64,000 bases of DNA from Leptolyngbya sp. (GCA_003249105.1 QBLT01000001.1:28648-92647); one strand, 5' to 3'. Counted from the first letter of the stretch, positions 6,212 to 61,223 are shown. Made by a program: numbers and translations. Notes: generated by a model from the sequence alone, not told the origin.

Positions 6212-6213
6212 AA

Positions 6214-8016: not shown

Positions 8017-8042
8017 AAAATCTTCCTGAATTAATAAATTTA

Positions 8043-8082
8043 AAAGCAAGCTAAGTCATATAACTATGGCTTAGCTTGCTTT
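8043..8082. terminator. Strong bidirectional hairpin (17-bp arms, 6-nt loop) between qatA and the upstream operon
   Basis: aaagcaagctaagtcat-ataact-atggcttagcttgcttt; arms complementary except one G-T wobble; A-run on left, T-run on right. Confidence 0.65.
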
Positions 8083-34853: not shown

Positions 34854-34864
34854 GGAGAGCAGAA

Positions 34865-35350: not shown

Positions 35351-35351
35351 A

Positions 35352-37494: not shown

Positions 37495-37860
37495 TTACTC
37501 CGCAAAGAACCCCAACAACGCATCCCCCGCCGCCCGCTGCTCCAGGTTCAGGTAGCTGGTCAGCGAGGCTAAACTAGCGTGTCCCGTAATCGCCATGATC
37601 TGACGCAGGGGCACCCCCGCATCATAGAGATGGGTGGCCAGAGATCGCCTAAAGGTATGGGTACTCACCCCCTCAAGCCCCAGCAGGTCACAGGCCCGAC
37701 GCAACGCCTTATCCACCGCTCGGGTGCTGATGTGCTGCCGGGGGGGCCGCTCTCCAACCTTCTCAAAGTAATAGTCGCCATTGGCCTGGCGCTGAATGCA
37801 GTACTGCTTCACTGTCGCTCGGGTCCATGGGGCAGCAGGGAACAGATACTCTGAGCTGGC
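37495..37860 (-). pseudogene. Tyrosine recombinase C-terminal remnant
   Basis: 'VSTHTFRRSLATHLYDAGVPLRQIMAITGHASLASLTSYLNLE' catalytic R/HxxR/H/Y region; open frame extends upstream only to an in-frame TGA near 37869 (SLASSEYLFPAAPWTRATVKQY), so the N-terminal half is missing. Confidence 0.75.
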
Positions 37861-39330: not shown

Positions 39331-39714
39331 CTACTGCATCTTCAATCCAGCGATCGCCCCTAGGGACTGCAAATTCTCCAGGCGCTTCCCGCAGGCCATT
39401 GGATGTTCTAAGCCCAGCAACTGGGCCAACTTGCCGATGGTTGTGACGGCGTAGATGGATGCCTCCTGCAAGGCAAGCAGAACTTCGTAGAGCCGCTGCT
39501 GCCCTGGGGAGAGCTGGCCCAGGTATTGAGTGTCAACCAAAATGTAAGAGCAATCCTCCAGAACCCCAGTCTTGGTATCACCACCGGAGAGGATTAGCTT
39601 CGTTCTGGCGATGTCGTCGAGCACCGCCTGGTCAATCTCAAGGTCAGCGTAGGCAGCATCGTGCTCATATTCGATGGCCAAGTTTTCGAGATGGTTGGAA
39701 CGTGAATAGGTCAT
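39331..39714 (-). CDS. Hypothetical protein
   Basis: ORF from MTYSRSNHLENL; compact helical protein, co-directional with the next gene. Confidence 0.5.
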   Translation of the reverse strand: MTYSRSNHLENLAIEYEHDAAYADLEIDQAVLDDIARTKLILSGGDTKTGVLEDCSYILVDTQYLGQLSPGQQRLYEVLLALQEASIYAVTTIGKLAQLLGLEHPMACGKRLENLQSLGAIAGLKMQ

Positions 39715-39770
39715 ACCGACCTCCAAAAATGGGGGAGCCAAGATTTTTTCCCATTTTAGTATGGCGTTCA

Positions 39771-40145
39771 TTACCTCGACGAGGCGGGTTGTTCTGACTC
39801 CTCAAAGTCGCCGTTGTGCTCCCAATCGCTACGATCCTCTTCCCAATCGCTACGATCATTCTCCTGATCATGAGAATCCTCGAAGTCTTCTGCTTCATTC
39901 ACAACCCGCTCAGAGCGGAAGCGATGTTGCCTAGAGTCGCGGCTGTTCACAATGCGTTGGGGTTGGTAGGTATTGAGGAACTGCTCATCATTGTCCCTTT
40001 GCACCCCAGCACTCCGCAGCGCTTTCTCGGCCTCCCTAACCCCTTCGGTGGGGATGTCAATCACCCAGTGGTGGCCGCCGTCGTTGCTGATCTCAATGAG
40101 GCTACGGTCGTCTTTGCTTTTACTCTTGCGTCGGCCTAAAACCAT
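39771..40145 (-). CDS. Hypothetical acidic protein with short DRSDWE repeat
   Basis: Start MVLGRRKSKSK at 40145; tail 'ENDRSDWEEDRSDWEHNGDFEESE'; the shared ATCCGATGTATTATTA motif lies upstream (40208-40223, minus). Confidence 0.5.
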   Translation of the reverse strand: MVLGRRKSKSKDDRSLIEISNDGGHHWVIDIPTEGVREAEKALRSAGVQRDNDEQFLNTYQPQRIVNSRDSRQHRFRSERVVNEAEDFEDSHDQENDRSDWEEDRSDWEHNGDFEESEQPASSR

Positions 40146-40370
40146 GGCTAGTACCTCTAATTTCAAGAAATACCCTGAACGCCATCTATCCGCACTGCGT
40201 TCTGATTTAATAATACATCGGATTAGTGTTTTAATCAACCTTGCTGAACGCATCGTCCCTCTTACGGTGGTTAGCCGGACGCTACCCCAGCCGCCATTGA
40301 ACCTCTGATTCGGAGGATGGAGGGAAACATAGTAGTGATGGGACGGGCGATGATGGCAGCTCCAGCCCCC

Positions 40371-41039: not shown

Positions 41040-41078
41040 ATAGCTTATTTATAGCTGATTAGATAGCTTTATGCTATC
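41040..41078. promoter_or_regulatory. Candidate operator: repeated ATAGCT boxes upstream of the RHH gene
   Basis: ATAGCT at 41040, 41051, 41063 (11 and 12 bp apart) plus AGCTAT 41011 and GCTAT 41073. Confidence 0.45.
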
Positions 41079-41182
41079 ACTGTAACCATTGGTGGAACGC
41101 AACTGGAACAACCGGGTTCCACCGAACCGCCGAAAGCATTGATTTACCGAAGTTTCGAACTGTAACCAAGAGGTGTAACGAC

Positions 41183-41701
41183 GTGGAACGTCAACCACTA
41201 TCGATTCGTAAGTTTGCTGAGGTCTGTGGGGTATCCCACACCGAAATAGGTCGCAAGATGACGGCCCTGGGTATCTCGGGAACTCCCCAGGGCAAAGGAT
41301 TGCCCACGCTGCTGAGTCCGGCTGAACAAGACAGAATCGCTCAAACCCTGTTTATTCCTGCGGAACCGCCCGCCCCTCCTGCGCAGCACGTTGAGGTGTT
41401 GGGCAATGGTTTATCGGTTTACACGCCCCCGCCGCTGGCAACTCGGGGCGTCAACAGCGAGCTTAGCCGCCATCTGCAACAGCAGCAGCTCACCCAGGCG
41501 CTAGGAGCCTTTAAGGGCAACCAGGCCAGCTTTAGAAACGCCCTGCTGGGTATGGCGGCTGAGTCGGGTCGCCAGCTGGGCCATGAGATGGCCGTTACCG
41601 AGATAAACACCGCCCTAGCCACCCACGCGCAACTGCAACAAACCGTGGGAAAGGAGTTGGGCGTCGTTGCAGACACGCCCGATACCGCCGCTACTGGTTA
41701 G
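41183..41701 (+). CDS. Helix-turn-helix-like N-terminal domain protein heading a conjugation-associated operon
   Basis: 'PLSIRKFAEVCGVSHTEIGRKMTALGI' HTH-like; followed by membrane/ATPase genes on the same strand. Confidence 0.45.
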   Translation: MERQPLSIRKFAEVCGVSHTEIGRKMTALGISGTPQGKGLPTLLSPAEQDRIAQTLFIPAEPPAPPAQHVEVLGNGLSVYTPPPLATRGVNSELSRHLQQQQLTQALGAFKGNQASFRNALLGMAAESGRQLGHEMAVTEINTALATHAQLQQTVGKELGVVADTPDTAATG

Positions 41702-41765
41702 GGGGTTTAGCCCTGATAACCGCCGTTTTCATCCTGTTAACGCCCTAACTTCGCTCATAACCATC

Positions 41766-42428
41766 ATGGAAGCCAAATTCACTCCCCCTGCCGTCCCCCT
41801 CCAATACCGCCGCGAGGCAGTTGGCGGTGCATCGCCTATCCAAAACATCTACCTGGCCCCCTTGCCCTGGTGGCAGAACCGCCGTTACTGGGCTGCCGGT
41901 GGCATTGCAGTTGCCGCCCTTTCAGGCATTGCCTTCGCGTTTGCTCAGTCAGGCCGAACAGGCGACGAGGGCACCTACCAGAGCGAACAACCCGCCCCTA
42001 ACTACGAGAACGTTTTGGCTGCCGCCCAAGACCGACTCTCGGGCAACTACGAAGACAGCCGCATGGTGCTGGCCGATGTGAACCGTGCGGTTTTGAATAA
42101 CGAGGCCTATCGCTACCGCCAGCAGGCGGAACAGGACGTCCTGAAGCCCACCGACCCGTGTTACCAGCAGCAGATCATCTGTCCCCTCAACCGCTATCAG
42201 CGCGACGCCCAGGTGATGTTGGATGCCGCTAAGGGCGATCGCGATTGGCGACAGGCCCAGGCGGCGCTCTTTCGGGTCGAGGCCGTGGAGGTGGCCCGCT
42301 CGCTGGCGGCGCTGCCCCAAGACCCACCAACCAATCTGGCCGTGGTGGCGATCGAGAATCTGGTGCAGTACCACGACCGGCAACACTCCCTCAGTGAAGA
42401 GGTGCAGGCCCATGAAGTACGCGATTAA
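41766..42428 (+). CDS. Single-pass membrane protein
   Basis: 'RRYWAAGGIAVAALSGIAFAFAQ' TM segment; start at MEAKFTPP. Confidence 0.55.
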   Translation: MEAKFTPPAVPLQYRREAVGGASPIQNIYLAPLPWWQNRRYWAAGGIAVAALSGIAFAFAQSGRTGDEGTYQSEQPAPNYENVLAAAQDRLSGNYEDSRMVLADVNRAVLNNEAYRYRQQAEQDVLKPTDPCYQQQIICPLNRYQRDAQVMLDAAKGDRDWRQAQAALFRVEAVEVARSLAALPQDPPTNLAVVAIENLVQYHDRQHSLSEEVQAHEVRD

Positions 42429-42645
42429 CTACGCCCGTTTTGTCTGGTTCCTGCTGTGGCGCTCAACACCTGGGCATCTCCTTCAAACCGCCGTGGTCGC
42501 TCCCTTAACCGGCATCGTCCTGATTGTGGTCTTGACGCAGCTGGCGGATTTTCTGGTCGCGCTGCTGCTGGGCTGGGGGTTGTTTCTGCTGGGGCTATCA
42601 GCCGTTCGAGCCGTAGCGTTGCGATTCGGGAGGGGCGTTCGATGA
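42412..42645 (+). CDS. Small membrane protein
   Basis: 78 codons, two TM helices; overlaps both neighbouring genes. Confidence 0.5.
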   Translation: MKYAINYARFVWFLLWRSTPGHLLQTAVVAPLTGIVLIVVLTQLADFLVALLLGWGLFLLGLSAVRAVALRFGRGVR

Positions 42646-43904
42646 ATCAGCATTACTTGCTCTATGGCTCCATTGGGGCAGCTGCCCTGGGGCTGTTCTG
42701 TGGGCTGCAACGGCCTGCCAGCAACCTCACCCCCGCTGACCTAGAGGCCTTCGCCAATGGGGCTCAGATTCGCTACGAGAAAACCTATCCCTATCTGCCT
42801 GCTGCTCTCGTGTTTGGGCTGGTGTCAGTGGGCTGCGGGGTGGCCTGGGCTGTGGGGGGAGAGCAGCCTAAGGTGGCCATTGCAGGCCCCCAGATTCCAC
42901 TCCAGCCACAGGGCTGGAATGGGCAGGTGCCCTTTGCCGGGGCCACTGAGTCCTTCCGGGTGGGTAACCCCGCCGCTATCCTTGCTGCCCGCATGCGCCC
43001 CACGCTCATTTCGGCCAACCCCAGAATCGGCAAAGGGCTAACGGTTGCCCATGCCTACCGCCAGGCCCAGGTGAAACACGGCGCGGTGGTGTGGGTGATT
43101 CAGCCCAAATACCACCCCAAGGAGCACGGCTATTGGGAGCAGGCCGATAATGTGCTCGGCTTCATGGCTGATTCTCTGGAGTCCAAGGAGGACATCGACG
43201 ACATCTGCGAACAGATGCAGAAGTTTATCTTCGCCTGGCGGCAGTTGCCTCAGCGGCCCAAGGTGCTGATTATCGACGAGCTGGCGATGATGAAGACCGC
43301 CTTTAAGGCCTGGTACGAGGGGTTCCTCAAGTCACAGCTCACCATGGAGCTGTCATCAGGGGAGACAGATGATCGCGCACTATGGGCCATTACTCAGTCG
43401 TCGCTGGTAGGCGATATCGGGGTCAGTGGTGGCATGAGAGCCACGTTTGACCTGCTCACCATTCAGACCCCCAGCAGCCAGAGCCATCTGGAGAGCCTGA
43501 GGAAGTCTGACACCAGCATTCCACCGATTGAGGATGAAGTGATTTTTGAGCGATCGTTCTCGCCCAAGCAGGCGGTCTTTTACCACTCAGAAATCAAAGA
43601 ATGGCTGCCGATGGTGGCCTATGAAGTGCCCGAACTAAGTTCGGCCTCGATAACCGGCGGCATAACTCGCGGTAACCACGGCACAGCAACCGATACAGCC
43701 GAATCAGTTACAAACCGAACCGAGTTTCAAAAGGCCTCCCAGGGGCCAGATCTGGCCCTGATCATCGCGGTAACCAACGCCCTGGCCCAGGGGATGTCGC
43801 GGTCCAAGGTGATCAAGGAGGTGCTGGGGTACCAGGGGCACAAGTACCAGGAAGGCTGTGACTTATTTGACCGCATCAAATCCATCATTGAGGAAAATTC
43901 CTAA
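42642..43904 (+). CDS. Membrane-anchored P-loop ATPase with divergent Walker A, conjugation-associated
   Basis: Two N-terminal TMs, 'RPTLISANPRIGKGLTVAHAYRQAQ' (divergent P-loop), 'KVLIIDELAMMKTAF' Walker B. Confidence 0.55.
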   Translation: MNQHYLLYGSIGAAALGLFCGLQRPASNLTPADLEAFANGAQIRYEKTYPYLPAALVFGLVSVGCGVAWAVGGEQPKVAIAGPQIPLQPQGWNGQVPFAGATESFRVGNPAAILAARMRPTLISANPRIGKGLTVAHAYRQAQVKHGAVVWVIQPKYHPKEHGYWEQADNVLGFMADSLESKEDIDDICEQMQKFIFAWRQLPQRPKVLIIDELAMMKTAFKAWYEGFLKSQLTMELSSGETDDRALWAITQSSLVGDIGVSGGMRATFDLLTIQTPSSQSHLESLRKSDTSIPPIEDEVIFERSFSPKQAVFYHSEIKEWLPMVAYEVPELSSASITGGITRGNHGTATDTAESVTNRTEFQKASQGPDLALIIAVTNALAQGMSRSKVIKEVLGYQGHKYQEGCDLFDRIKSIIEENS

Positions 43905-44452
43905 TGGCTAGCTCTAAGAACAATCAACTCGCCAATAGCAACAATGGCCCCGAGATCATCGACGGGCAAATCATCGACATCACGCCCCAGCTCAGCTCGC
44001 CAGGTCGGGGCAGCGGGGTCCAGCTCGCGCCACGCAATGCCATGCGATCTAACGTGCAGGATGGCGGCTGGTTTGATGCCACCAGCGGCAAGCGCAAGCC
44101 CATTTTTGTCATCACTCCCAGCACCGATCCCTGGAGCGTATTTCCGGTGATTCGCGCTGCTCTGAGCTGTTTGAAGAACCATCCCTTGCAGACGATGGGT
44201 GGAGCTTTTATCTCGGTGTGGGGCGGGCTGTTTGTGCTCTCGGCGGGGCTGAATGTGCTGCAAGGTTCGGCGGTCAAAGCCGGAGGTGATATTTGGAATC
44301 CGGTGGTGGCGGGAACCAACTTTGGGGCCATGTTGGTGGTACCGACGCAGAGCATCGCGGGCAGCGCTCACAAAGTGTTGACCGGGGAGGAACGGGTCGG
44401 TCAACCCATTGAAACGCGTCCTTACACTCGCGCTGTGAAGGTCGGGGAGTAG
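43904..44452 (+). CDS. Hypothetical membrane protein
   Basis: 182 aa with hydrophobic segment 'TMGGAFISVWGGLFVLSAGLNVL'; ATGA-type junction. Confidence 0.5.
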   Translation: MASSKNNQLANSNNGPEIIDGQIIDITPQLSSPGRGSGVQLAPRNAMRSNVQDGGWFDATSGKRKPIFVITPSTDPWSVFPVIRAALSCLKNHPLQTMGGAFISVWGGLFVLSAGLNVLQGSAVKAGGDIWNPVVAGTNFGAMLVVPTQSIAGSAHKVLTGEERVGQPIETRPYTRAVKVGE

Positions 44453-44454
44453 CG

Positions 44455-44877
44455 ATGCTGTTCTGGCGAATCAGAACCCGGTACCTGCTGGCCCTGGCGG
44501 CGTTGTTCGTCGGGATCGCGTTTTTAGACCTGAAGCAGCCGGGCCGGGGGCAGTTCTACAACCCGGTCTATGGGGTGAGGTCTTGGTTCAACACCCACCA
44601 GCCTGCGGCGTGGCAGCTGGTGACCAGGGTGCAGGGCAACGATGCTCGTCTGCATGCCTGTGTGGCGGTGGCTCCTGATCCGGTTGCCCTCGATGCCACC
44701 AAGGCGGAGCTGCGCAGGGCGCTGGTGGGGGAGTCAGAATCTGTGGCGCTGGAGTGGTTGGGGCAGCCTGCCTGCACCTTGGGTAACGGGATCTATCGCT
44801 GGGCCTTGGACAACGGCTTGGCCCTCGATGTGACGGTGACGGAGGGGGAGGTGACCCACAGTGAACTCAACCGTTAA
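44455..44877 (+). CDS. Hypothetical exported/membrane protein
   Basis: 140 aa with N-terminal TM; overlaps the next gene. Confidence 0.5.
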   Translation: MLFWRIRTRYLLALAALFVGIAFLDLKQPGRGQFYNPVYGVRSWFNTHQPAAWQLVTRVQGNDARLHACVAVAPDPVALDATKAELRRALVGESESVALEWLGQPACTLGNGIYRWALDNGLALDVTVTEGEVTHSELNR

Positions 44878-45988
44878 ACACTACAAACCCCACTGGTCGG
44901 AGCTGCCGCCGACCTGGCGCTACGTCATCGGGACGGCGATGCAGGCGGGCGAGCTGGTGCTCAAGCTGGGCTGCGTGGGGGCGATCGCCACCTCAGTGTG
45001 GGTGATGGTCGATCAGGAGACGAATGAAACCTGGGGGGCACGGTTCAGGAAAGTCAGCGCGGTCGCGGAGGCGGTGACTGGGTTCTATGACGATGACTTT
45101 AAGGCCCTGATCAGCAAGGGCGATGTGATTGCGGGCTACACCGTCAACTCGGGCTTTGGCCTGCGGATGCATCCCATCCACAATGAGATGCGGATACATT
45201 CGGGCATTGACCTGCCGACGCCGGAGGGGGTGGCAATTCATGCGATCGGCTATGCGGGGGATCGGGTGTCGGTGCGCTGCTGGAGCGACCCGAAGGGCTA
45301 TGGCACGGTGGCGGATATGACCAGCAGTGCCTTTCCTGAGATCACCTTTAGGGCGGCTCACTTGTCCCACTGCAAGGGGGGTGAGCACCGAGCCGGGGCG
45401 GTGGTAGCGAAGACGGGTAACACCGGCGGCAGCACGGGCGCTCACCTGCATTGGGAGCAGCTACAAGGCGGTGTAGCCCAGGCTCCGCAGAAGGGCTATC
45501 TGGTCTGGGCGCTGAATGGTCGCAAACCCAATGAGCGGCTGGGGGATACGATTGCGCTCTACCGGGCGATTGTTGCCAAGGAGTCGGGCGGTGACCACAC
45601 CGCCGTCAACCCTGACACGGGGGCATTGGGCCTGGGGCAGGTGATGCCGCAGAATCTCAACTGTTCCTGGGACGGCAAACCTAAGAGCAACTGCGGCTGG
45701 GATTACGATGTGCTGGGTCGCGATGTGTCGCCCCAAGAGTTTTTGCAGAATCCCGATATTCAGCAGCAGATCGTGGGGGCCAAACTGGAAAGTGCCCTAC
45801 AGCGCCAAATTCAAGCGGGCCACGATATGAATACTGCTGTTAAGCGGGTGGCGGCGGAGTGGTATTCGGGCAATCCTGAGCTGGCCCACGATACGCGCCC
45901 CCAGGCGGGCTATGAGTCCATCAAGAGCTATGCCGACAGTGCGGCGGAGAAGGTCCACCGGCTCCGGCAGGAGAACCTGGAGAAGTAG
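44861..45988 (+). CDS. Bifunctional peptidoglycan hydrolase: M23 endopeptidase plus SLT lytic transglycosylase
   Basis: 'GFGLRMHPIHNEMRIHSGIDLPTPEG...TGNTGGSTGAHLHWEQ' M23; 'IVAKESGGDHTAVNPDTGALGLGQVMPQN' SLT. Confidence 0.9.
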   Translation: MNSTVKHYKPHWSELPPTWRYVIGTAMQAGELVLKLGCVGAIATSVWVMVDQETNETWGARFRKVSAVAEAVTGFYDDDFKALISKGDVIAGYTVNSGFGLRMHPIHNEMRIHSGIDLPTPEGVAIHAIGYAGDRVSVRCWSDPKGYGTVADMTSSAFPEITFRAAHLSHCKGGEHRAGAVVAKTGNTGGSTGAHLHWEQLQGGVAQAPQKGYLVWALNGRKPNERLGDTIALYRAIVAKESGGDHTAVNPDTGALGLGQVMPQNLNCSWDGKPKSNCGWDYDVLGRDVSPQEFLQNPDIQQQIVGAKLESALQRQIQAGHDMNTAVKRVAAEWYSGNPELAHDTRPQAGYESIKSYADSAAEKVHRLRQENLEK

Positions 45989-46261
45989 GCCCTCGCCCAG
46001 GATGGTGCCCTTGTCAGTGATTTCGCAACCTGAATCAGGCGCAAAAGCCAAGCGGGATACTCTTAATTATTTTCAATACGATATATTAGCTTTGAATAAT
46101 GTGGAGAGTCCAACGAATCCAGTTCTTGACCGGGTTACAGCCCAGGCTCAGCAAAAACAGAGGGGCTACGGGTGCGAGAGTTTCCGATCGCATTTTCCGA
46201 GTCCTTCCGTGGGAATGGATGATTACACACTGCAGGAGATCGCATGGGGGAAGTAGGAACG

Positions 46262-46531
46262 ATGTGCAATCTGGTGTACTGGAAGGACGAAGTGTCGGGC
46301 GCTCTGGCTCCCGTCGTTGAAAAATTCTTGCTCACTGAAGAGCACTTGGACGGTACCGAACGGGCAACGCTAGCGGAATACCTTCGCAGCTGGGCCTATG
46401 GGCCTTTCGCCGGGGGGAGCAAACTAGAGCTTCTCCAATCCACGTTTACCGAGCTGGTGGCCCAGGGCGATCGGAACAGCATCGAACAATGGTACCGCCA
46501 GGCGCTTGACCTAGGAATCGAACCGTTTTAG
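46262..46531 (+). CDS. Hypothetical small protein
   Basis: ORF from MCNLVYWKDEV; followed by terminator hairpin. Confidence 0.45.
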   Translation: MCNLVYWKDEVSGALAPVVEKFLLTEEHLDGTERATLAEYLRSWAYGPFAGGSKLELLQSTFTELVAQGDRNSIEQWYRQALDLGIEPF

Positions 46532-46641
46532 GCCAACCCAAAAGCCCGCCTGAATCCAACCAGGGCAGGCTTTTGGGCGAAAATGAATTCCCAAAAAATA
46601 CTTCATTTTTATATTAATCCGATGTATTATTAATTATTGGC
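46530..46641 (+). promoter_or_regulatory. Terminator+promoter module, copy A
   Basis: aaaagcccgcc...ggcaggctttt hairpin, cttcatttt, then ATCCGATGTATTATTAATTATTGGC at 46617-46641. Confidence 0.7.
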
Positions 46642-46664
46642 GAGGCACACCACGGTCACTCCAA

Positions 46665-46877
46665 ATGAACGTGAAGATCCTAACCATGCAAACCGAACGC
46701 ACGGGCTGGCATCCCGAGTACAGAAGTCGCCGGGTCTTTGAAATCAAGGGAAGCCCAAAAGAAAAATGGGTGTGTGGTGAGTGTGAGTGTGATCGCTTTG
46801 TCTTCGGGGCGAGCCTATTCCAGGCTTACTGCCACCAATGCACCGCCCTAGTCCAATCACCAGAGTTGAAATCATGA
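46665..46877 (+). CDS. Small putative zinc-ribbon protein
   Basis: CGECECDRFVFGASLFQAYCHQC: two CxxC-like pairs. Confidence 0.5.
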   Translation: MNVKILTMQTERTGWHPEYRSRRVFEIKGSPKEKWVCGECECDRFVFGASLFQAYCHQCTALVQSPELKS

Positions 46878-47128
46878 CCGCGATATATCAAGACAAACTC
46901 AACCCCGCGTTCTCCAGGCGCTGGGAAGGCTTACCAAACATCTGTTCAGAAGCGGGCATCAGCGTTCGGCAGTTCTTGAGTGAGGGCATTAGCGAGGTCT
47001 ACAACAACCAGACCAATCAGGTGATAGACCAGTTCAACTCTCAAAACGACGCGATCGCAGCAGCGTTCCTGATCGCCTGCGAGATGAAAAACCTTAACCC
47101 TGCTGACTACGGCTTCACATTCGCCTAG
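46874..47128 (+). CDS. Hypothetical protein
   Basis: ORF from MTAIYQDKLNPAF; overlaps previous stop (ATGA). Confidence 0.45.
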   Translation: MTAIYQDKLNPAFSRRWEGLPNICSEAGISVRQFLSEGISEVYNNQTNQVIDQFNSQNDAIAAAFLIACEMKNLNPADYGFTFA

Positions 47129-47139
47129 GAGCAAAAACC

Positions 47140-47625
47140 ATGACACATCATCCCATTTACCAGGTCGGCCCCACCGAGCGGGAGCACCGCGATCGCTACG
47201 AGCTAGAGCTACGCATTGAAAACCTTGGCACGTTCCCCAGAGGGGATGACTCCCGGTATCAGTGGCGGGCCAATGCAGAGTGCTGGGACTGGTGCGCACC
47301 GCTCAGCCTCGAAGAGCTATGGCCTGAGATCGAGGCTAGCATTTTGAAAGACTCTGGCACCTGGGGCCAGGTCGCTCGGGTTGTCATCCATACCTGCAAT
47401 TGGAGTGGCACCTATGCCCTACTGAGCAGCCTGGAGCTCGCAGCTGGTGTGCCCACCATGATGGCGGCCAGTCGAGCGATCAAGACTCCACACATTCTCG
47501 AAACCGTTAAAGATGCCACGGACGGCCAGAGCTGCGGGTATGTCTGCCGATGGTTTCCGACCGACTGGAGTCCCAACCGGGAAGAGCGAATCATCGAAAC
47601 TGTCGTTGACTTTAAGCGAGGCTAA
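47140..47625 (+). CDS. Hypothetical protein
   Basis: 161 aa ORF with RBS-like context, co-directional. Confidence 0.45.
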   Translation: MTHHPIYQVGPTEREHRDRYELELRIENLGTFPRGDDSRYQWRANAECWDWCAPLSLEELWPEIEASILKDSGTWGQVARVVIHTCNWSGTYALLSSLELAAGVPTMMAASRAIKTPHILETVKDATDGQSCGYVCRWFPTDWSPNREERIIETVVDFKRG

Positions 47626-47735
47626 CCATGGGCTGCATTTATGACTCATTCAATGGGGGCTGAAGAACCTGCCGACCGAAAACGGACAGCCCACAGGTGA
47701 GGCCGGGAGCCTGCCACATCAATCACCTAGACCCA

Positions 47736-47874
47736 CCGCAAATCGGTAACACATTTTCGTTTTAGCCTCTGACCCGCCCGGCCTGAAATCCAATCAGGGC
47801 GGGCTTTTTTGTGGAGATAAATATCCCAAAACACTTTACTTTTACTGTTATCCGATGTATTATTAGTTATCGGC
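47736..47874 (+). promoter_or_regulatory. Terminator+promoter module, copy B
   Basis: ccgcaaatcggtaacacattttcgtttt, hairpin ending gggcgggcttttttg, ctttacttttactgtt, ATCCGATGTATTATTAGTTATCGGC at 47850-47874. Confidence 0.75.
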
Positions 47875-47901
47875 AAGGCAAGTTGTTCTGAGGCCGCAAG
47901 C

Positions 47902-48264
47902 ATGACCGATTCCTTTGAACGCATCACCAACCACAAAGTGGTTTATGTGGTGGCTGAACCGGAAACCAACGCACTCGAAGCGACTGCCGCCCTCACCGCA
48001 TTGGAAGTGGCGGCAGTGGCCCCCACGTATGAGCAGCAAGGGCTAGTCGTCACCCCCTGGGTTGCTCAGCAAGGCGATCTAGTTGAGTTCTGTGAGGACG
48101 GCGGCGGCTGGGGGGAAGTGGTGGAGGTGCTCAGAGATGGTAAGGCCATCAAGGTTCAATTTGACGGGCAGACCAGAAAGCAGGCCGAAACCTGGGACAG
48201 CTTCATGTTTGACCCGATCAAGCTTGCTGAAGCAGGCAACACTCAACCACACCTAGAGGATTGA
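47902..48264 (+). CDS. Hypothetical protein
   Basis: 120 aa ORF directly downstream of module B. Confidence 0.45.
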   Translation: MTDSFERITNHKVVYVVAEPETNALEATAALTALEVAAVAPTYEQQGLVVTPWVAQQGDLVEFCEDGGGWGEVVEVLRDGKAIKVQFDGQTRKQAETWDSFMFDPIKLAEAGNTQPHLED

Positions 48265-48267
48265 CCG

Positions 48268-48600
48268 ATGAGCGAAAACACCACCATCCAGCCAGAGCTA
48301 ATTCATTCCCTGCTCGCAGCCGTTCGACTCTGGCAGGGAGCTGGTGGGCCGGAAGGCGCGATCGCAGACCTACACGATATCGCTACCAATGGCGGTACCT
48401 GCTGGCCGGTCAGCAGCGACGAGCTAGACGAGTTTTGCGAGGGGCTGTGTACTGGCGAGATTGTGCTAGTTCCTGCGGCCCAATTGCAGGGCCTGGCGGC
48501 AACCTTTCAAGCCATCGTCAACATTGAAGACCCAGAAACCATCGCCATGGTCTGCGACAACGCGATCACAAAAGCTCTTGAGCCCAACCGTCCTCAGTAG
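48268..48600 (+). CDS. Hypothetical protein
   Basis: 110 aa ORF 3 nt after previous stop. Confidence 0.45.
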   Translation: MSENTTIQPELIHSLLAAVRLWQGAGGPEGAIADLHDIATNGGTCWPVSSDELDEFCEGLCTGEIVLVPAAQLQGLAATFQAIVNIEDPETIAMVCDNAITKALEPNRPQ

Positions 48601-48672
48601 TCGCCGGTAGGAGTAGGCGGGGTTCGACTCCCCACCCCGGCCTGGTCAGAGTAATTTGTTCAGAGGTCTGCT

Positions 48673-49836
48673 ATGGAAAGCAGAAAAACTTGGCTGCTTA
48701 ATTATGGAATGGGCGTAGACTCTACAGCCATTCTGGTGCGCTGGATTCTAGAGCCAGAGTCGCGGCCCTTTGATTCGCTGGATGATCTGGTCGTCCTCAC
48801 CGCCCAAACCGGAGACGAATTCTGGAGCACCAAGATGATGGTGGAGCAGTTCGTCCTCCCCTTGCTCAGGGAGCACGAGATCCGCTTTGTTCAGGTCGCC
48901 AAGGCAGGCCCATCTAAGTGCGACGGCTACACCGTATTATCTGACACCCGCGAACCCTGGACATGCCACACAGAGGGGGATTACAGGCTATCGCAAAACC
49001 TGATTGCCGCAGGCACTGTTCCCCGACTTGGCCGTCCCCACATATGCGCGATTCGCTGGAAGGGAGATGTACTCGACCCGTGGATCGGGGATCACATCTC
49101 TGGAGCTATCGGCCCCGCCATTGGCTACAACGCCGACGAACCGAAAAGGGTAGCCAAGTCTAACGAGTATGGCTGTCGGAGCGCCGACTACTTCTATCCC
49201 TTGGTTGAATGGGGCTGGGGCCGCGATCGCTGCATAGACTACCTCCGCGAGACGTTTGGTGTCATTTGGCCTAAGAGCTGCTGTTACTTCTGCCCCTTTC
49301 AAAAGGATTTTGACGCTAGCGATCGCTGGAAGAAAGAACCCATCTATGGGGCCGAGGCTCTATGGGTAGCCGGTTTTGGACTGGCCTTTAATCCCAGGAT
49401 GCACCTGATGAGCAAAGGATCTGCAATGGAGATCGCCCAGGCCCATGGGTGCTTTGAAGCGATCGCCCTGTACGAGGAATGGCTAGAGGCCCACGATTGG
49501 TCGGTCTACCAGGTCAGGCGTATTTATACCAACACCGGCACCTCAGCCAAAACCAGGATCAACGCCCGCCGCGACGTGAAGACGCTCGACACAGGCGATC
49601 GCACAGAGATGACCCACAAGTTGCATAGCTTGGCTTTTAGGGTGGGTGCAGAGGTGGAGCTGTGCGGGGAATGGTATCGGGCCTACACGGAGTGCCGTGG
49701 TGATGGATACCCCGCGATCGAAGAGTTTTTAGTCGCTTGCCCAGCAGCTCCATCCGACAAGTGCCAGCACTTGCGCAACTTCAACAACACCTGGGCAAAA
49801 CTGACAGCCACCGTCCAGATGTCGCTAGCGCTCTAG
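48673..49836 (+). CDS. PP-loop / PAPS-reductase-like protein
   Basis: 'NYGMGVDSTAILVRWI' PP-loop-like; Cys cluster 'KSCCYFCPFQKD'. Confidence 0.65.
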   Translation: MESRKTWLLNYGMGVDSTAILVRWILEPESRPFDSLDDLVVLTAQTGDEFWSTKMMVEQFVLPLLREHEIRFVQVAKAGPSKCDGYTVLSDTREPWTCHTEGDYRLSQNLIAAGTVPRLGRPHICAIRWKGDVLDPWIGDHISGAIGPAIGYNADEPKRVAKSNEYGCRSADYFYPLVEWGWGRDRCIDYLRETFGVIWPKSCCYFCPFQKDFDASDRWKKEPIYGAEALWVAGFGLAFNPRMHLMSKGSAMEIAQAHGCFEAIALYEEWLEAHDWSVYQVRRIYTNTGTSAKTRINARRDVKTLDTGDRTEMTHKLHSLAFRVGAEVELCGEWYRAYTECRGDGYPAIEEFLVACPAAPSDKCQHLRNFNNTWAKLTATVQMSLAL

Positions 49837-49847
49837 CCAAGCTAAAC

Positions 49848-49952
49848 CCTGCCGCCCACCCTGAAACTCAACTAGGGCAGGCTTTTTGGCGAAAATGAAT
49901 TCCCTGAAACGCTTTACTTCTTTAGTCATCCGATGTATTATTAGTTATCGAC
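49848..49952 (+). promoter_or_regulatory. Terminator+promoter module, copy C
   Basis: aaaccctgcc...agggcaggcttttt hairpin, ctttacttctttagtc, ATCCGATGTATTATTAGTTATCGAC at 49928-49952. Confidence 0.75.
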
Positions 49953-49987
49953 AAAAAGCTTCTGGTCAGAGTAATTAAGAGGTCACC

Positions 49988-50722
49988 ATGGTCATTTCTA
50001 CAGCGCACAACAGGGGTCTGTGGATGGCGGCTGATAGCTCCCCCAAGCTATCCCAGGAGCGTTGTTACGGCGATAGCAGGTCGGCGACGGTGGCCGACCT
50101 GCTCGTTACCCTTCTGGGTATCGGGCACGGAAAAGCTCAGCAGGTTATTGACAAAATCACCTGCCAATCTGTTTTGCTCGACAAAGCGACTGCCTGGCAA
50201 AGGCTCCGCGAGGCTACAGCTCTTGAGTTACGAGCCGCTGGGCTGACCAAAATCCAGGTCGGCAAAGTTCAAGCGGGTGTTGAGCTGGGTCGCCGGGTCT
50301 ATCTGGAGAAACCTAAGGACAGTCAGTACATGATTGACGATCCTCAGGTCGCTGCCGAATTGCTGGGGGGCGACCTGATGTGGCAACGGGTGGAACGGTT
50401 CGCAGCCATTGCACTCGACATAAGAAATAGGGTGATCGGCTACGAGATCTTGTCTCAGGGGACGCAGACCGAGTGCCTAGCCGACCCCAAAGAAATCTTT
50501 GGCTGGCTACTCCGAGTGGGGGCCGTGCGCGGCATTGTCGCCCACAATCATCCTTCAGGGTCTCTTCTTCCTAGCCCTGATGACATCCAGTTAACCAGGC
50601 AGCTTCTGCAAGGTGCAAAGACCCTAAACCTGAGCATCCTCGATCACCTCATCCTCGGGAATGGCGACTACGTGAGCCTGCGGCAGACCACCAACCTCTG
50701 GCAGGAATGCCCTCAGAACTAA
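49988..50722 (+). CDS. radC: RadC/JAB-domain protein
   Basis: 'VGAVRGIVAHNHPSGSLLPSPDDIQLTRQLLQGAKTLNLSILDHLILGNGDYVSL' is the RadC JAB/MPN core. Confidence 0.9.
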   Translation: MVISTAHNRGLWMAADSSPKLSQERCYGDSRSATVADLLVTLLGIGHGKAQQVIDKITCQSVLLDKATAWQRLREATALELRAAGLTKIQVGKVQAGVELGRRVYLEKPKDSQYMIDDPQVAAELLGGDLMWQRVERFAAIALDIRNRVIGYEILSQGTQTECLADPKEIFGWLLRVGAVRGIVAHNHPSGSLLPSPDDIQLTRQLLQGAKTLNLSILDHLILGNGDYVSLRQTTNLWQECPQN

Positions 50723-50728
50723 TGCACA

Positions 50729-50762
50729 CCGCCCTAGACCACGCCTATGGTCTAGGGCTTTA
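50729..50762 (+). terminator. Hairpin terminator after radC
   Basis: ccctagacca-cgccta-tggtctagggctttatt. Confidence 0.6.
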
Positions 50763-50793
50763 TTCGCAAATCGCAAACTCAAGGGGTAAACCC

Positions 50794-51189
50794 ATGAAAT
50801 ACTGTCCAAGCCAAGGTGTAGACCGTTACTTTGCAGACCCGAGCGATTACCCCCGATGGCATCAGTTCACCAAGCAGATTCTGTCTGGTGAGTTAAGAAA
50901 GGAATTCGCTTTCGGAACCCTGTTCAACGCTGTCGAGATTCAATTGGCCTGGGCATCGCGATCGCAGCTATTGGGGATAACCTACTTTCCCGATCGCAAT
51001 GCCGATGAAGAGTACGCGACGGTAGGTTTCGCCCTATCGATCCGCCAGTCTCGAACCATCACAGGCTGGATGCAAGTTTTTAAGGTGGTAGCGCGGCCAG
51101 CTCCAAACGAAGATCGGGGCTGGTTCATTGACAGCGATGGCTATCCGCAGCAGCACCTGAACACGTTCAAGCGTGAGTGGAGGTGGTAG
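50794..51189 (+). CDS. Hypothetical protein
   Basis: ORF from MKYCPSQGVDRYF. Confidence 0.45.
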   Translation: MKYCPSQGVDRYFADPSDYPRWHQFTKQILSGELRKEFAFGTLFNAVEIQLAWASRSQLLGITYFPDRNADEEYATVGFALSIRQSRTITGWMQVFKVVARPAPNEDRGWFIDSDGYPQQHLNTFKREWRW

Positions 51190-51194
51190 TAGCC

Positions 51195-51401
51195 ATGGGT
51201 ATCAAATTGGGCGATCGCGTGAGGTTTACGAAGGGCATAGGGGAAGGCGTAGTAACCGGGAGCTGCCGCCCCAACTACGAATTTCTGATGAACCATACTG
51301 GCTGCGCCGTCTGGTTGGTGCAGTTCTCAATCTCGGCTCAATGGATGCCAGCGGACGACCTAGCCGTGATCAGACCAACTGAGCAACTGGCCCTATTCTG
51401 A
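51195..51401 (+). CDS. Hypothetical small protein
   Basis: ORF from MGIKLGDRVRFTKGIGEGVV (KOW/SH3-like start). Confidence 0.4.
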   Translation: MGIKLGDRVRFTKGIGEGVVTGSCRPNYEFLMNHTGCAVWLVQFSISAQWMPADDLAVIRPTEQLALF

Positions 51402-51412
51402 GGCAAGGATCT

Positions 51413-51886
51413 ATGGCGACCTTAGACGACATCTCATTGAGTAGTTGCGCCCGAGACATCGGCCCAGGAGCTGTAGACCAACTGGCTGGCAGGGGAGGCC
51501 AGGCCGATGTTTGGCACATGCTCGAACGGTTCCCTTTAATCAAGGCCAATAGCGAGAGTATTTGGTTCGCTCGCCGGGATGGCAGGGTGCGGCAGGCGGT
51601 GGAGCGCGATCGGCCTGACCTGGCAACTGCATTCGGCCCAGAGACGCGGGAAGACTGGATCGCCCTGGCCCAGCTCTGCATCTGGGCAGCCGTGGGCCTA
51701 CGGGTGGCACCTGAGACACTGCTGGAAGGGGAAACCTTCACCTACTACCAGGGTGGCAACGGGGCGCGCCGATTCAAATACGGTCACCCCGACACCCTGC
51801 GCATAGAGAGCCGTCGCCTGGGTGGCCTAGAACCGCACTGGGTTCCAGACAAGGGATTAGATTGGCAACCCTCCGCAAATCGGTAA
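51413..51886 (+). CDS. Hypothetical protein
   Basis: 157 aa ORF; its 3' end overlaps the ccgcaaatcggtaacacattt repeat of module D. Confidence 0.4.
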   Translation: MATLDDISLSSCARDIGPGAVDQLAGRGGQADVWHMLERFPLIKANSESIWFARRDGRVRQAVERDRPDLATAFGPETREDWIALAQLCIWAAVGLRVAPETLLEGETFTYYQGGNGARRFKYGHPDTLRIESRRLGGLEPHWVPDKGLDWQPSANR

Positions 51887-51970
51887 CACATTTCCGTTTT
51901 GCCCTCTGAGAAAGAGCATACCCGCAACACTTTATTCATTTCATTATCCGATGTATTATTAATTGTTGGC
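51873..51970 (+). promoter_or_regulatory. Promoter module, copy D (no clear terminator)
   Basis: ccgcaaatcggtaacacatttccgttttgccctctgag, ctttattcatttcatt, ATCCGATGTATTATTAATTGTTGGC at 51946-51970. Confidence 0.7.
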
Positions 51971-52006: not shown

Positions 52007-54121
52007 ATGGCAACATCAGAGGTCGCCCAACGGGCAAAAAAGGTCAGAGGCCAGCTGAAGGCTGAGTTCCCTGGTATTAAGTTCTCGGTCAGGGTACACA
52101 ACTACAGTGGCGGCGATAGCATCCGGATCGAGTGGACAGACGGCCCTAAGAGCGCTGACGTTAAGGCGATCGCCCAGGAGTTTGGGAGCGTAAGGCGATG
52201 TGAGGCTAGCGGCGAAATCCTGGGTGGCGGCAACAGCTATGTTTTCGTGGAACGCAGATACAGCTCCGAAGCGTACCAGGCGGCGCTGGAGGTGGTCTGC
52301 CAGGATTGGGGCCTAGACGTCCCCGAGTTCTCGGTTAGTTGTGGCAGTCCATACCTCAGCCATGAGCAGGATGTTCAGAGCGTTGGGGGCGGCAACTCTA
52401 GCCTGGGTGAGCTGATCTGGCAGCACCTGGCCGATCTTGACCTACGCGCTACCGAAGGCCCTGCACCAGCCGCTGCCGACCCGATCGCGCCAAGCAGCCA
52501 GTTATTGGCAGGAACCATGAACAGCTACAACGAGTTTATGGTGGGCACCACACAACCCAAAAGCCGCCAGGCCGAAGATCGCAACGGCAAGCTAATCGGT
52601 GGACAGTTTGAATACGGCGGCTGGGAGTTTCGGATCGAGCCCGTCAATAGTGCAACCAAAGGCTACAAAACTATCGGCTATCAACTTATTGTGGGCGGTG
52701 AATACCAACGAGTGCTGGGCTACACCAGCCACCGCCCAAACCACTACTTCAGAAGCCTCGCAGAAGCTCGACGGGCAGCATTCTGGTATCTGTCTGGGGA
52801 AAAGGCCACCAGCCTAGAGCTGAGCGTGCTCTGTCAAATCTTCAGAAAGACCGACCAGATCGCCTGGTTGCTCGAAACAGTTGGCGGCACCCTATTTCGC
52901 AACCAGCTAGTGGATCGTGACCTACAAGAGTGGGGCCACCAAGAAATCGCAGCTGAGGCCCTGGCGATGTTGCACGACCTAGAGGCAGGCCAAGGACCAT
53001 CCTCTGGGGGCGATCGCAGTCCTATGCCAATCCCGCCACCACCTCCGGCAGATGAGGCTCTGGCCTCTTCCGCCCCAGACCCCCGGCTAACCCAACGGGC
53101 CGCGAGGTTCCGAGACATGGCCGACCGCCTACAGGAAACCATCGACCAAAAGCTAGCGCCCCGGCTGGAGAACACCCCTAAGCGGGCCAGGGAAGCAGAG
53201 GCCCAGCGACACGACGGCTATAAGATCCAGGGTGTGCAAGCCATCCTACGAGCGATCGCCGACCAGACCGACGACGGCACCCTCTCTCATCCCCTCTCTG
53301 CAATTACCAACAAGGCCCAGATTGAAACCCTGATGGGATTTACCGAAGAGAATATCCTTTCGGGGAAAGGTGGGGTTGACGGCATCATGGCCAAACTCAA
53401 ACTCAGCCCCGAGCAAATGGTAGAGCTGCTGCGCCAGCTCAAGGGCATTGTCAGAGGCAATGTTGTCATCGACCACGATGCCGAAGAGCTAAAACGCCTG
53501 ATGGCCGAGTTAAGGTACTGCGGCATTCCTGGGTACGTGACCACACCCAGGGTGATGGCCGAAGAGGCGATCGCCTTTCTCGAAATCACCAATGATGACT
53601 TCGTGCTAGACCCCCAGGGCGGCAGCGGTGCTCTGTTAAACGTCATCCGCGATCGCCACCCCGGTGCCCGGCTAGCCACCCTGGAGATCAACGACAGGCT
53701 GCGCAAAATTCTTCAGCTCCAGGGTTTTAATGTGCTGGGCGATGATTCTATGGAGTATCACCCCGGCCCCAGTGAGCGGCCTACCAAGATTGCGATGAAT
53801 CCACCCTTCGCGGCCCTGGCCGACATCGGCCATGTTCGTCATGCCTACGACATTTTGGCCCCCAGTGGGCGCATGGTAGCCATTATGTCGGCTTCTCCGT
53901 TCAATCTGGCTCGCAGGGCCGCAACCGCATTCCGCAGCTGGCTCGACGAGGTGCCGATCGTCCTTCACTGCGAGAAAAACGCCCCAGACACTTTTCGATC
54001 ATCGGGTGCCACCGTCCAGACCTACCTAGTCGTCCTGGAGAAACCAGCGGCTTTGGGGGCTCTACCTCAAACCCTGCCTGCTGTAGCGATGTTGCGGCAA
54101 CTCAGCCTGTCCCTCTTTTAG
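52007..54121 (+). CDS. LPD29-type N-terminal domain fused to class I N6-adenine methyltransferase-like domain
   Basis: N-terminal 'FPGIKFSVRVHNYSGGDSIRIEWTDGPKSADVKAIAQEF'; C-terminal 'DFVLDPQGGSGALLNVI' (motif I) and 'KIAMNPPFAALADIGHV' (motif IV). Confidence 0.75.
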   Translation: MATSEVAQRAKKVRGQLKAEFPGIKFSVRVHNYSGGDSIRIEWTDGPKSADVKAIAQEFGSVRRCEASGEILGGGNSYVFVERRYSSEAYQAALEVVCQDWGLDVPEFSVSCGSPYLSHEQDVQSVGGGNSSLGELIWQHLADLDLRATEGPAPAAADPIAPSSQLLAGTMNSYNEFMVGTTQPKSRQAEDRNGKLIGGQFEYGGWEFRIEPVNSATKGYKTIGYQLIVGGEYQRVLGYTSHRPNHYFRSLAEARRAAFWYLSGEKATSLELSVLCQIFRKTDQIAWLLETVGGTLFRNQLVDRDLQEWGHQEIAAEALAMLHDLEAGQGPSSGGDRSPMPIPPPPPADEALASSAPDPRLTQRAARFRDMADRLQETIDQKLAPRLENTPKRAREAEAQRHDGYKIQGVQAILRAIADQTDDGTLSHPLSAITNKAQIETLMGFTEENILSGKGGVDGIMAKLKLSPEQMVELLRQLKGIVRGNVVIDHDAEELKRLMAELRYCGIPGYVTTPRVMAEEAIAFLEITNDDFVLDPQGGSGALLNVIRDRHPGARLATLEINDRLRKILQLQGFNVLGDDSMEYHPGPSERPTKIAMNPPFAALADIGHVRHAYDILAPSGRMVAIMSASPFNLARRAATAFRSWLDEVPIVLHCEKNAPDTFRSSGATVQTYLVVLEKPAALGALPQTLPAVAMLRQLSLSLF

Positions 54122-54231
54122 GAATGAAAAAGCCGACTAAGCGCCCAGAGGTCACACAGAGCGGTTGGTCGGCTTGGCCAGAGTGGGCTCATGCTACCAT
54201 AATTCATCCGATGCATTATCCTGTTACGGTT

Positions 54232-54630
54232 ATGGCCGAGGAGCAACCCAAATCTAAAGCCAAACCCGGCCCCAAAAAGGGAGCACGGCAAAGGTTTTGC
54301 ACGGTGGAGGGATGTGATCGGTCTCACTATGCCAAGGGCATGTGCTTCAAGCACTGGCGGGCCAGCAAAGGTTATGGAGCTGGTGGCGATCGCGTTGCCG
54401 CAAACGTTAGCTACGACAGCAGCGAACAGGGAAAGGAGCGACACAAACGCTCGTACCTAAAACGGCAGATCATTAAAAAGCTGACCGGCAAAACGTCTAT
54501 AACTGCGGCTTTCGCCGATCCGGCTGCTGTGGCCAAGCTGCGGTCTAGCGAAGCAGCCCTAGATGCGGTGTGGGAGTTCTTCACCGAAGAACAAAAGGCT
54601 GTCCTCCGGCAACGAGAGGGAGAGAGCTAG
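54232..54630 (+). CDS. Small zinc-finger-like protein (paralog 1)
   Basis: 'FCTVEGCDRSHYAKGMCFKHWRASKGYG...FADPAAVAKLRSSEAALDAVWEFFTEEQKAVL'; start at MAEEQPKSK. Confidence 0.55.
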   Translation: MAEEQPKSKAKPGPKKGARQRFCTVEGCDRSHYAKGMCFKHWRASKGYGAGGDRVAANVSYDSSEQGKERHKRSYLKRQIIKKLTGKTSITAAFADPAAVAKLRSSEAALDAVWEFFTEEQKAVLRQREGES

Positions 54631-54634
54631 AACT

Positions 54635-55021
54635 ATGTCAATAACTGAACGGAGGATGGCTGATTGTCACCCAAACCGTAAGCACTACGCCAAAGGGTTA
54701 TGCCAACAGTGCTACCGAAAGGAAAGATTTTCGACCGATTACGCAGTCAAAAAATTTGGCGATCGCCTGCCTGGCTATCGCCGTAAATACGAGGAAAGCC
54801 CAAAAAGTAGAGCGCGCGCCGGTCGGTACTATCAGGTTCGCACTGCGATCGCCAAAATTCTCGACAGTCCAGCGCCCAAAATGCGCGAGGTGTTCAGCGA
54901 TCCGGTTGCGATCGCGACCCTAAGGGCAGCGCTAGACAGAGGCGACCCCATCTTGATGAAGGTATGGGGCGATCTAACCCAAAAGCAACAGAAGGCTATA
55001 TATAGTGAGCTTGGCGAGTAA
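54635..55021 (+). CDS. Small zinc-finger-like protein (paralog 2)
   Basis: 'DCHPNRKHYAKGLCQQCYRKERFSTDY...FSDPVAIATLRAALDRGDPILMKVWGDLTQKQQKAI'. Confidence 0.55.
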   Translation: MSITERRMADCHPNRKHYAKGLCQQCYRKERFSTDYAVKKFGDRLPGYRRKYEESPKSRARAGRYYQVRTAIAKILDSPAPKMREVFSDPVAIATLRAALDRGDPILMKVWGDLTQKQQKAIYSELGE

Positions 55022-55768
55022 TCAAGTTGGCTTTAGCGCAGGGCAAGCGCCCCAGCCGACGATAGTGGTCACCTCAAGGTTTGTCAGAGCCGCCACCTTA
55101 TAGCAATCTTCGGCAGTCAGGGGATAACCTTCGAGAATGCGCTCAGCCTGAGGGACGCTGACATTCAGCGCAGCGGCCAAATCATTGATGCTCTTGTCTC
55201 CTTTGGATAGCCAGCCGCGAAGCACATAAGTTAAAGGTGTCTCAATTGGCTTTTCTTGATCTTCAGGTTTTTCCTGGGAAAGTGCCGCAGTAGCTTGCCT
55301 AGCTAGTGCTTCCGCTGCGGCAGTAATCACTGCGACCAAATCCTCAGCTGGCAAACCTTTCTCTAGCTGAGCAATTATTCGTTTAGCATCAGGGGTGGCA
55401 TCGGTCTTGGCGGCGGGGGCAGCATCAGCCTTGGCCTCGACCCGATCTACCTGATCAGCAGATTTAGGTTTATCCAAACCCGATAACCACAGGTACGCGA
55501 GTGTTTCGGCCTCGGCAGGATCGGTGCTAAACCCCTTCAGCAGTCCGATTCGCTGTAAATTTTTCGATTTTAGTCCCTGCGATATCTGTCGGTTGATCCA
55601 ACGAGAAACCACCGTAGTGCTGAAGCCACCTAGTTCAGGGTAGGCGGCCAGCCGTACGGCAGAGTTAGCGCTAAAGGCATTAACTCCTTTAGCACCACCC
55701 CCAAGCTTCGCCGCCTCCGAAGTCACCCAACCGACTAGCCTATCAACGTAATGCTGATCTACAGCCAT
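55022..55768 (-). CDS. HTH-containing putative regulator
   Basis: 'GFSTTVVSRWINRQISQGLKSKN' and 'KSINDLAAALNVSVPQAERILEGYPLTAEDCYKVAALTNL' HTH-like segments. Confidence 0.5.
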   Translation of the reverse strand: MAVDQHYVDRLVGWVTSEAAKLGGGAKGVNAFSANSAVRLAAYPELGGFSTTVVSRWINRQISQGLKSKNLQRIGLLKGFSTDPAEAETLAYLWLSGLDKPKSADQVDRVEAKADAAPAAKTDATPDAKRIIAQLEKGLPAEDLVAVITAAAEALARQATAALSQEKPEDQEKPIETPLTYVLRGWLSKGDKSINDLAAALNVSVPQAERILEGYPLTAEDCYKVAALTNLEVTTIVGWGACPALKPT

Positions 55769-60842: not shown

Positions 60843-61223
60843 ATGGCGACATCTACAGATGTACGAGTAATCCCTCTGCGGGACGTACTCAGGGCAGTAA
60901 TGGAAGAGTATGCGATTCGGGCGTCTGAACTGTCGGCCAAGTCTGGAGTTCCCGAAAGCAGTATTTCAAAGTTCCTCAGTGGTTCTTCAGATTTACGAAC
61001 CACGGATGTTGATGCTATAAGGACAGCACTCCCTGATGAAGCAAGGACGCATCTGCTGCAATTGTTAGGGCACTGCGGGAGTGTACCGGTAGATGAAAAT
61101 GCACGTCTCTTGTTAGTGCTATCGGGAATCAGGGAGTATGCACAGATGTGCAGCACGGCTCAATTCCAAGAAGTTTTAGGCGCGATCGTAGAAGGTAGAG
61201 CCAAGGCACTAGAGCACGCTTAG
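60843..61223 (+). CDS. HTH (XRE-like) protein
   Basis: 'LRAVMEEYAIRASELSAKSGVPESSISKFLSGSSDLRTTDVDAIRTAL'. Confidence 0.7.
   Translation: MATSTDVRVIPLRDVLRAVMEEYAIRASELSAKSGVPESSISKFLSGSSDLRTTDVDAIRTALPDEARTHLLQLLGHCGSVPVDENARLLLVLSGIREYAQMCSTAQFQEVLGAIVEGRAKALEHA

Follow-up and report, generated by a model that had tools for sequence, protein, structure and literature searches.

Repeated-control establishment regulons have been found described for a few Bacillus plasmids (PMC8708921). Plasmids of the pLS20 family carry establishment regulons (EGeRS1/EGeRS2), and in p576 the Reg repressor is present in the settled host and absent from the new recipient, which results in a burst of expression after transfer (PMC8708921). 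The p576 operator is TTATCCCnnTTATCCC and flanks the promoter; through these operators, an RHH protein also mediates autoregulation of reg (PMC8708921). Leading regions controlled by Frpo are described mainly for enterobacterial plasmids; in Frpo, the folded single strand pairs the -35 and -10 boxes with their complements (PMC11541004). No paper on the leading regions of cyanobacterial plasmids was found in the open-access literature. Short repeats that bound exchangeable gene units are also a property of pdif modules and integron cassettes.

This work describes a repeated, promoter-like module in Leptolyngbya sp. The window, i.e. the whole stretch of DNA analysed, comprises 64,000 nucleotides of contig C111 (C111:28648-92647) of a host genome labelled G000. 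It contains five exact copies of the 16-mer core ATCCGATGTATTATTA. Four of them (46617, 47850, 49928 and 51946; modules A to D) are located exactly where the earlier note had reported them. A fifth on the minus strand (40208-40223; module E), which that note had overlooked, heads a divergent two-gene unit. The features are listed below, with positions counted from the first letter of the window.

39331-40145, minus strand: operon E, two proteins (124 aa and 146 aa) without assigned function.
40208-40238, minus strand: module E, predicted promoter with TTGATT (40238-40233), 17 bp and TATTAT (40215-40210); core 40223-40208.
46540-46576, plus strand: hairpin terminator (AAAAGCCCGCCTG..CAGGGCAGGCTTTT) before module A (folding z -3.2).
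46602-46632, plus strand: module A, predicted promoter with TTCATT (46602-46607), 17 bp and TATTAT (46625-46630); core 46617-46632 (motif scan, offset scoring).
46665-47625, plus strand: operon A, three small proteins (70, 84 and 161 aa) without a match in the family and PHROGs searches.
47733-47811, plus strand: block CGCAAATCGGTAACACATTTTCGTTTT followed by a hairpin terminator, before module B.
47835-47865, plus strand: module B, predicted promoter with TTTACT (47835-47840), 17 bp and TATTAT (47858-47863); core 47850-47865.
47902-49836, plus strand: operon B, proteins of 120 aa and 110 aa, a hairpin linker and a PAPS-reductase-like protein of 387 aa (48673-49836; phrog_424, E 8.9e-9).
48603-48672, plus strand: intercistronic linker GCCGGTAGGAGTAGGCGGGG-TTCGACT-CCCC with leader GGTCAGAGTAATT..AGAGGTC (sequence comparison).
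49851-49888, plus strand: hairpin terminator before module C.
49913-49943, plus strand: module C, predicted promoter with TTTACT (49913-49918), 17 bp and TATTAT (49936-49941); core 49928-49943.
49988-51886, plus strand: operon C, RadC/JAB (49988-50722; PF04002, E 8e-33), then proteins of 131, 68 and 157 aa.
51873-51900, plus strand: block CGCAAATCGGTAACACATTTCCGTTTT, located where gene 51413-51886 ends; it forms the left border of the LPD29 cassette that is absent from genome G036.
51931-51961, plus strand: module D, predicted promoter with TTTATT (51931-51936), 17 bp and TATTAT (51954-51959); core 51946-51961.
52007-54121, plus strand: protein of 704 aa with LPD29 and a C-terminal DNA-methyltransferase-like part (PF18847, E 2.6e-16; phrog_15406).
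54206-54221, plus strand: degenerate motif ATCCGATGCATTATCC where the following gene begins (motif scan, comparison with C48 and G036).
55022-55768, minus strand: 248-aa protein with a C-terminal HTH (weak HTH_3; C-terminal helices with pLDDT ~80-90), candidate regulator.

The closest known kind would, by analogy, be the establishment regulons of the pLS20 family. As in that family, the transfer operon is conserved and a conserved control sequence occurs in multiple copies, each located before a small, variable, mosaic operon; the two systems are unrelated in sequence, phylum and gene set. In contrast to p576, the element overlaps the spacer and the -10 box, the candidate regulator is an XRE-like HTH protein rather than an RHH protein, and no autoregulated regulator gene with the motif was found here. 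Comparable dispersed promoter modules were not found in the stretches from pCC7120beta, pLBX, G004:C377, G003:C2 and G049:C3. A three-copy repeat in G049 was set aside, as it surrounds formylglycine-type and reverse-transcriptase genes and not promoters.

Across the whole 5.08-Mb assembly, ATCCGATGTATTATTA has eight exact copies (five on C111, two on C37 and one on C392), each followed by a purine, and no copy with one or two mismatches. When up to three mismatches were allowed, eight sites were seen in the window versus 0.18 expected by chance, and no shuffle reached eight. Within the genome, the core is confined to mobile-element contigs: the three copies outside C111 are spread over contigs of a second, related plasmid and one mixed contig. 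When the core pattern was relaxed, there were eight matches in G000, two in G036 and none in the other 64 of the 66 genomes of the order. Three matches to a 19-mer in genome_contigs (GTDB representatives) were rejected, as they belong to unrelated organisms and lie at chance level. These distributions bear on the explanation that the plasmids exploit a regulator or an alternative sigma factor encoded by the host. The identical core on three separate contigs of one host would agree with such a factor, as would the candidate status of any plasmid regulator. However, the 5-Mb genome contains no other copy and the 64 other genomes of the order contain none, hence there is no chromosomal regulon, and the sole other carrier (G036) has a sister plasmid. 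We consider a host factor very unlikely.

A -35-like box (TTnAnT-like), 17 bp and TATTAT are found in 8/8 G000 copies, and this offset is the best of all: scoring against TTGACA at every offset gives a peak of 27/48 at 17 bp, with distant offsets reaching 11.8 on average and 21 at most. The promoter-like character that the earlier note had attributed to the modules is thereby retained, with a spacer one bp shorter (TTTACT-17-TATTAT) than the 18 bp it had given. The -35-like hexamers read TTTACT, TGTACT, TTTATT, TTCATT or TTGATT, the latter in the divergent copy E, and T1, A4 (or an A shifted to position 5) and T6 are retained in nearly all copies. The ATG follows ~32-65 bases downstream of the core, mostly with a Shine-Dalgarno-like leader, AGAGGTCAC, before it. 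The hexamer spacing of sigma-70-type promoters (16-18 bp) is present in the G000 copies and not in the two G036 copies. From this geometry, each module is well supported as a predicted sigma-70-type promoter. Reading the core as Met-Tyr-Tyr-stop (ATG-TAT-TAT-TAR, 8/8) was rejected, given that no Shine-Dalgarno sequence lies upstream and the -10 box would fall within it.

The modules could also be single-stranded-DNA promoters (Frpo/ssi type) that are active on the incoming strand while its complement has yet to be made. Several copies occur in a leading-region-like gene set, which recalls the repeated promoters before early-entry genes (SSB, ParB-like and methyltransferase genes in theirs) of F-like plasmids (PMC11541004). 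Yet, for both strands, the folding of B, C and D does not surpass that of shuffles (z -1.3 to +0.2); the one conspicuous structure is the terminator stem of A, in which the -35 box is not paired with the -10 box. Unlike Frpo, the modules have no fold in which the -35 and -10 boxes are paired, and a promoter of this type is extremely improbable here.

An inverted repeat across the -10 box, CCGAT-N12-ATCGG, had been put forward, as had co-regulation by one plasmid repressor. N12 is the best-scoring spacer for this dyad (26/40 against a background near 10), but the repeat is perfect in copy B only (1/8) and imperfect in the other seven. Across the eight copies, the right arm is ATTGG, ATCGG, ATCGA, GTTGG, CAGAA, ATGGA, ATAGG or ATAGA. 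The right half (ATnGR) may be a degenerate half-site at most, and the operator palindrome as originally formulated was rejected because of this variation. What remains of the earlier interpretation are modules that are promoter-like, start operons and border cassettes; the dyad is not conserved, and binding of the modules by one plasmid repressor stays hypothetical.

Hairpin-plus-T terminators are present upstream of A, B and C, where three similar ones had been noticed, and of the C392 copy. A simple terminator scan (loop limit 8) misses these hairpins, probably owing to their longer loops. The block ccgcaaatcggtaac...ttycgtttt, previously recognized in B and D, is indeed present in both, and a third relative lies upstream of the C392 core copy. 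The shared leader ggtcagagtaatt..agaggtc was likewise recovered, with further occurrences on C392 and the second plasmid. Intercistronic linkers related to 48603-48672 are found ahead of RadC and LPD29 on C37; no tRNA or Rfam element was detected in the linker.

Contigs C37 and C48 are part of the second plasmid, which is homologous to C111; C48 begins with the C-terminus missing from the C37 LPD29 protein and then follows the same gene order. On both plasmids (C111 and C37), the core heads the RadC operon and the LPD29 operon, with RadC of C37 likewise sitting behind a module. The RadC proteins are 76% identical with 45% identity at fourfold silent sites, and the LPD29 proteins are 67% identical with 57% identity at these sites. 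The core is identical at 16/16 positions between the two plasmids while its flanks differ. Because the core is invariant while the linked RadC and LPD29 silent sites are nearly saturated, it is, on this comparison, conserved by selection and not by recent copying. An explanation without a dedicated regulator would be that a strong constitutive promoter block was spread by recombination, its extra bases tuning promoter strength. This explanation draws on the clear promoter geometry, on the module copies serving as recombination borders and on the fact that no autoregulated repressor was found. Sigma-70, however, does not normally read the TCCGATG spacer block, yet this block is unchanged in 8/8 copies and persists in G036 despite a damaged -10 box. 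It is also implausible that homogenisation would be confined to 16 bp and leave the flanks diverged. We therefore judge a constitutive block to be unlikely.

The sister plasmid, contig C14 of G036 (a different species of the same genus), is collinear with the transfer operon of the window (41068-46088, 89% DNA identity). It is devoid of operons A and B, the LPD29 cassette and the E genes; motif-headed operons thus vary between G036 and C111 while transfer genes are conserved. The G036 RadC module is a hybrid, of which the left part matches module A of C111 and the right part matches module C. The point from which the LPD29 cassette is missing, window position 51870, coincides with the start of the shared CGCAAATCGGTAAC block, and the second G036 core copy runs straight into a truncated gene. 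Based on this A/C hybrid, the cassette border and the junction in the truncated gene, turnover of genes at the modules between related plasmids is supported by the comparison. The cassette-like layout proposed earlier, with room for gene exchange, agrees with these gains and losses of gene groups. Both G036 copies read AGTCCGATGTATTA(G/C)TTAAT, in which the 12-mer is retained with one extra base that changes TATTAT into TATTAG or TATTAC, and no good -35 box is present there. As read from these two copies, the damaged -10 box poses the greatest problem for interpreting the module as a promoter alone; since the 12-mer is kept despite this damage, the element would seem to exceed a -10 box. The degenerate motif ATCCGATGCATTATCC is also kept in C48 and G036.

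These junctions could also be expected if the core were a site-specific recombination site (pdif- or integron-like) that moves cassettes, its promoter likeness being secondary. One G036 junction lies directly after the core, inside the truncated gene, and another within the hybrid A/C module; tyrosine-recombinase-like genes seem present, judged by eye from translations (window 37495-37812 and C48 101-853). Ordinary recombination between repeats explains the junctions too, however, and no conserved inverted arms surround a central region. Conservation moreover reaches the -35 box at 17 bp and the Shine-Dalgarno-like leader, and every G000 copy faces a gene start. In contrast to pdif modules and integron cassettes, there is no two-arm recombinase site, and the repeat is a predicted promoter at a near-fixed position before a gene. 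A recombination site is highly improbable as the primary function of the core.

C111 encodes a T4SS coupling protein (TrwB/TraG), a TraC/VirB4-like ATPase and ParA/ParB. On this T4SS-bearing contig, the five motif copies head separate operons, consistent with the view of the earlier note that each module starts a small operon. On C392, the core precedes a ParB gene. A relaxase was not found on C111 (PF03432 matches contig C357 only), nor was an oriT. Homologues of the methyltransferase part of LPD29 are abundant on conjugative enterobacterial plasmids, and in an IncF leading-region example a homologue of the LPD29 C-terminus lies beside antirestriction, SSB, ParB, PsiB and PsiA genes. RadC, the LPD29-methyltransferase and the ParB-like protein fit establishment roles; most other motif-headed genes have no assigned function, and none matched a known anti-defence family in PHROGs. 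Because of the IncF neighbourhood, an establishment or leading-region role of the motif-headed genes is likely, the basis on C111 being gene content. The motif-headed gene groups are probably arrival-time genes of a conjugative plasmid.

The modules presumably respond to a common regulator. Among the HTH proteins named previously, the best candidate would be the one encoded at 55022-55768, because it is conserved, next to the motif-bearing regions, in each of the three plasmids. Its orthologues, syntenic with the motif region, share 64% (second plasmid) and 87% (sister plasmid) identity. A single-sequence AlphaFold model has a mean pLDDT of 49 and is reliable for the C-terminal HTH only. Close homologues of this protein and the motif co-occur in the same two of the 66 genomes of the order, which is weak evidence for a functional link, since both are located on one plasmid. 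The promoter of the candidate does not contain the core but another conserved box, ATCCCGTnnnCGGAAT, and none of the HTH genes in the window has the motif (≤ 3 mismatches) upstream. Of the three proteins named (the third at 61824-62237), the comparison covered this one and the HTH protein at 60843-61223; the latter was rejected as regulator, its closest relative in the genome being only 28% identical.

Taken as a whole, we consider it somewhat more probable than its negation that the module is a plasmid-specific operator-promoter common to a set of establishment-type operons. The supported side of this reading consists of cis elements only: the repeat, its selection, its geometry, its restriction to mobile contigs, its link with RadC and LPD29, and turnover. 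A sigma-70-type promoter would have its spacer and -10 region overlaid by the invariant plasmid-specific element TCCGATGTATTA, which a plasmid-encoded regulator most likely binds to switch the small operons together. These operons would form the variable accessory or establishment set of a conjugative cyanobacterial plasmid family, including RadC, the LPD29-methyltransferase, PAPS-reductase-like and ParB-like proteins and small proteins without assigned function. We infer that the operons are transcribed from the modules, repressed and transiently expressed, and which protein is the regulator. By analogy with p576, this regulator would keep the operons silent where the plasmid has settled, and the promoters would become active upon entry into a new cell, with a burst after transfer. 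Because a shared terminator-promoter-leader block separates the operons, recombination between copies of this block may add or remove gene groups, each still joined to a promoter.

The operator-promoter may in addition be a preferred joining point for cassettes, so that arrivals gain entry-time control, which we put forward tentatively as a rather doubtful extension. If true, this would to our knowledge be the first such establishment regulon in cyanobacteria. If the reading as a shared operator-promoter is correct, the 12-16 bp core would be a search tag for candidate counter-defence or settlement genes, and the A/C hybrid of the sister plasmid would be direct comparative evidence for reshuffling without loss of control. 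As far as sequence comparison can tell, the module is a real, selected and repeated predicted promoter with cassette-like turnover, and it tags uncharacterised plasmid genes.

Every copy of the 16-bp core, in the window (46617, 47850, 49928, 51946 and 40208), on the second-plasmid contig C37 and on the further contig C392, can be read as ATG-TAT-TAT-TAR (Met-Tyr-Tyr-stop), and position 17 is always a purine. A second short element, a hairpin linker of the form GCCGGTnGGAGTAnnCGGGG-loop-CCCC, lies between cistrons, 3' of stop codons, in three copies:

window 48603-48640, linker copy
C37 stretch L018 2432-2462, minus strand, linker copy
L018 about 4634-4672, minus strand, linker copy

The loop is TTCGACT in two of the three; the third carries the reverse complement, AGTCGAA, a loop inversion.

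The same contigs, the window and its contig C111 carry further features:

window 3415-8049, minus strand, complete QatABCD anti-phage system (PADLOC, E down to 3e-266), adjoining T4SS genes
window 30440-32803, NERD-UvrD helicase accompanying the Lamassu-type genes and matching a PADLOC candidate
window 33939-37373, plus strand, Lamassu-type LmuA, LmuC and LmuB genes (PADLOC)
C111 19052-27916 (L069 2055-10916), minus strand, polyvalent protein of 2954 aa with helicase, N6-methylase (weak) and DUF6908 domains
L018 10620-13013, three 87-nt direct repeats, positioned between toxin-like genes
C392 stretch L019 5033-8179, terminase-like large subunit gene into which an intein-like element (LAGLIDADG) is inserted; on this contig a ParB gene is headed by the core

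A long hairpin-like stretch 3' of LPD29, before the next gene, is kept in both plasmids (window 54125-54190; right end of the second-plasmid stretch L077). Its loop contains AGAGGTCACA, the same string that serves elsewhere as a Shine-Dalgarno-like leader.

Two adjacent genes encode small paralogous proteins:

window 54124-54630, first paralogue, with an HNH-endonuclease-type zinc motif (phrog_5351)
window 54563-55021, second paralogue

The pair is conserved next to the HTH gene in all three plasmids; its products are possibly DNA-binding partners.
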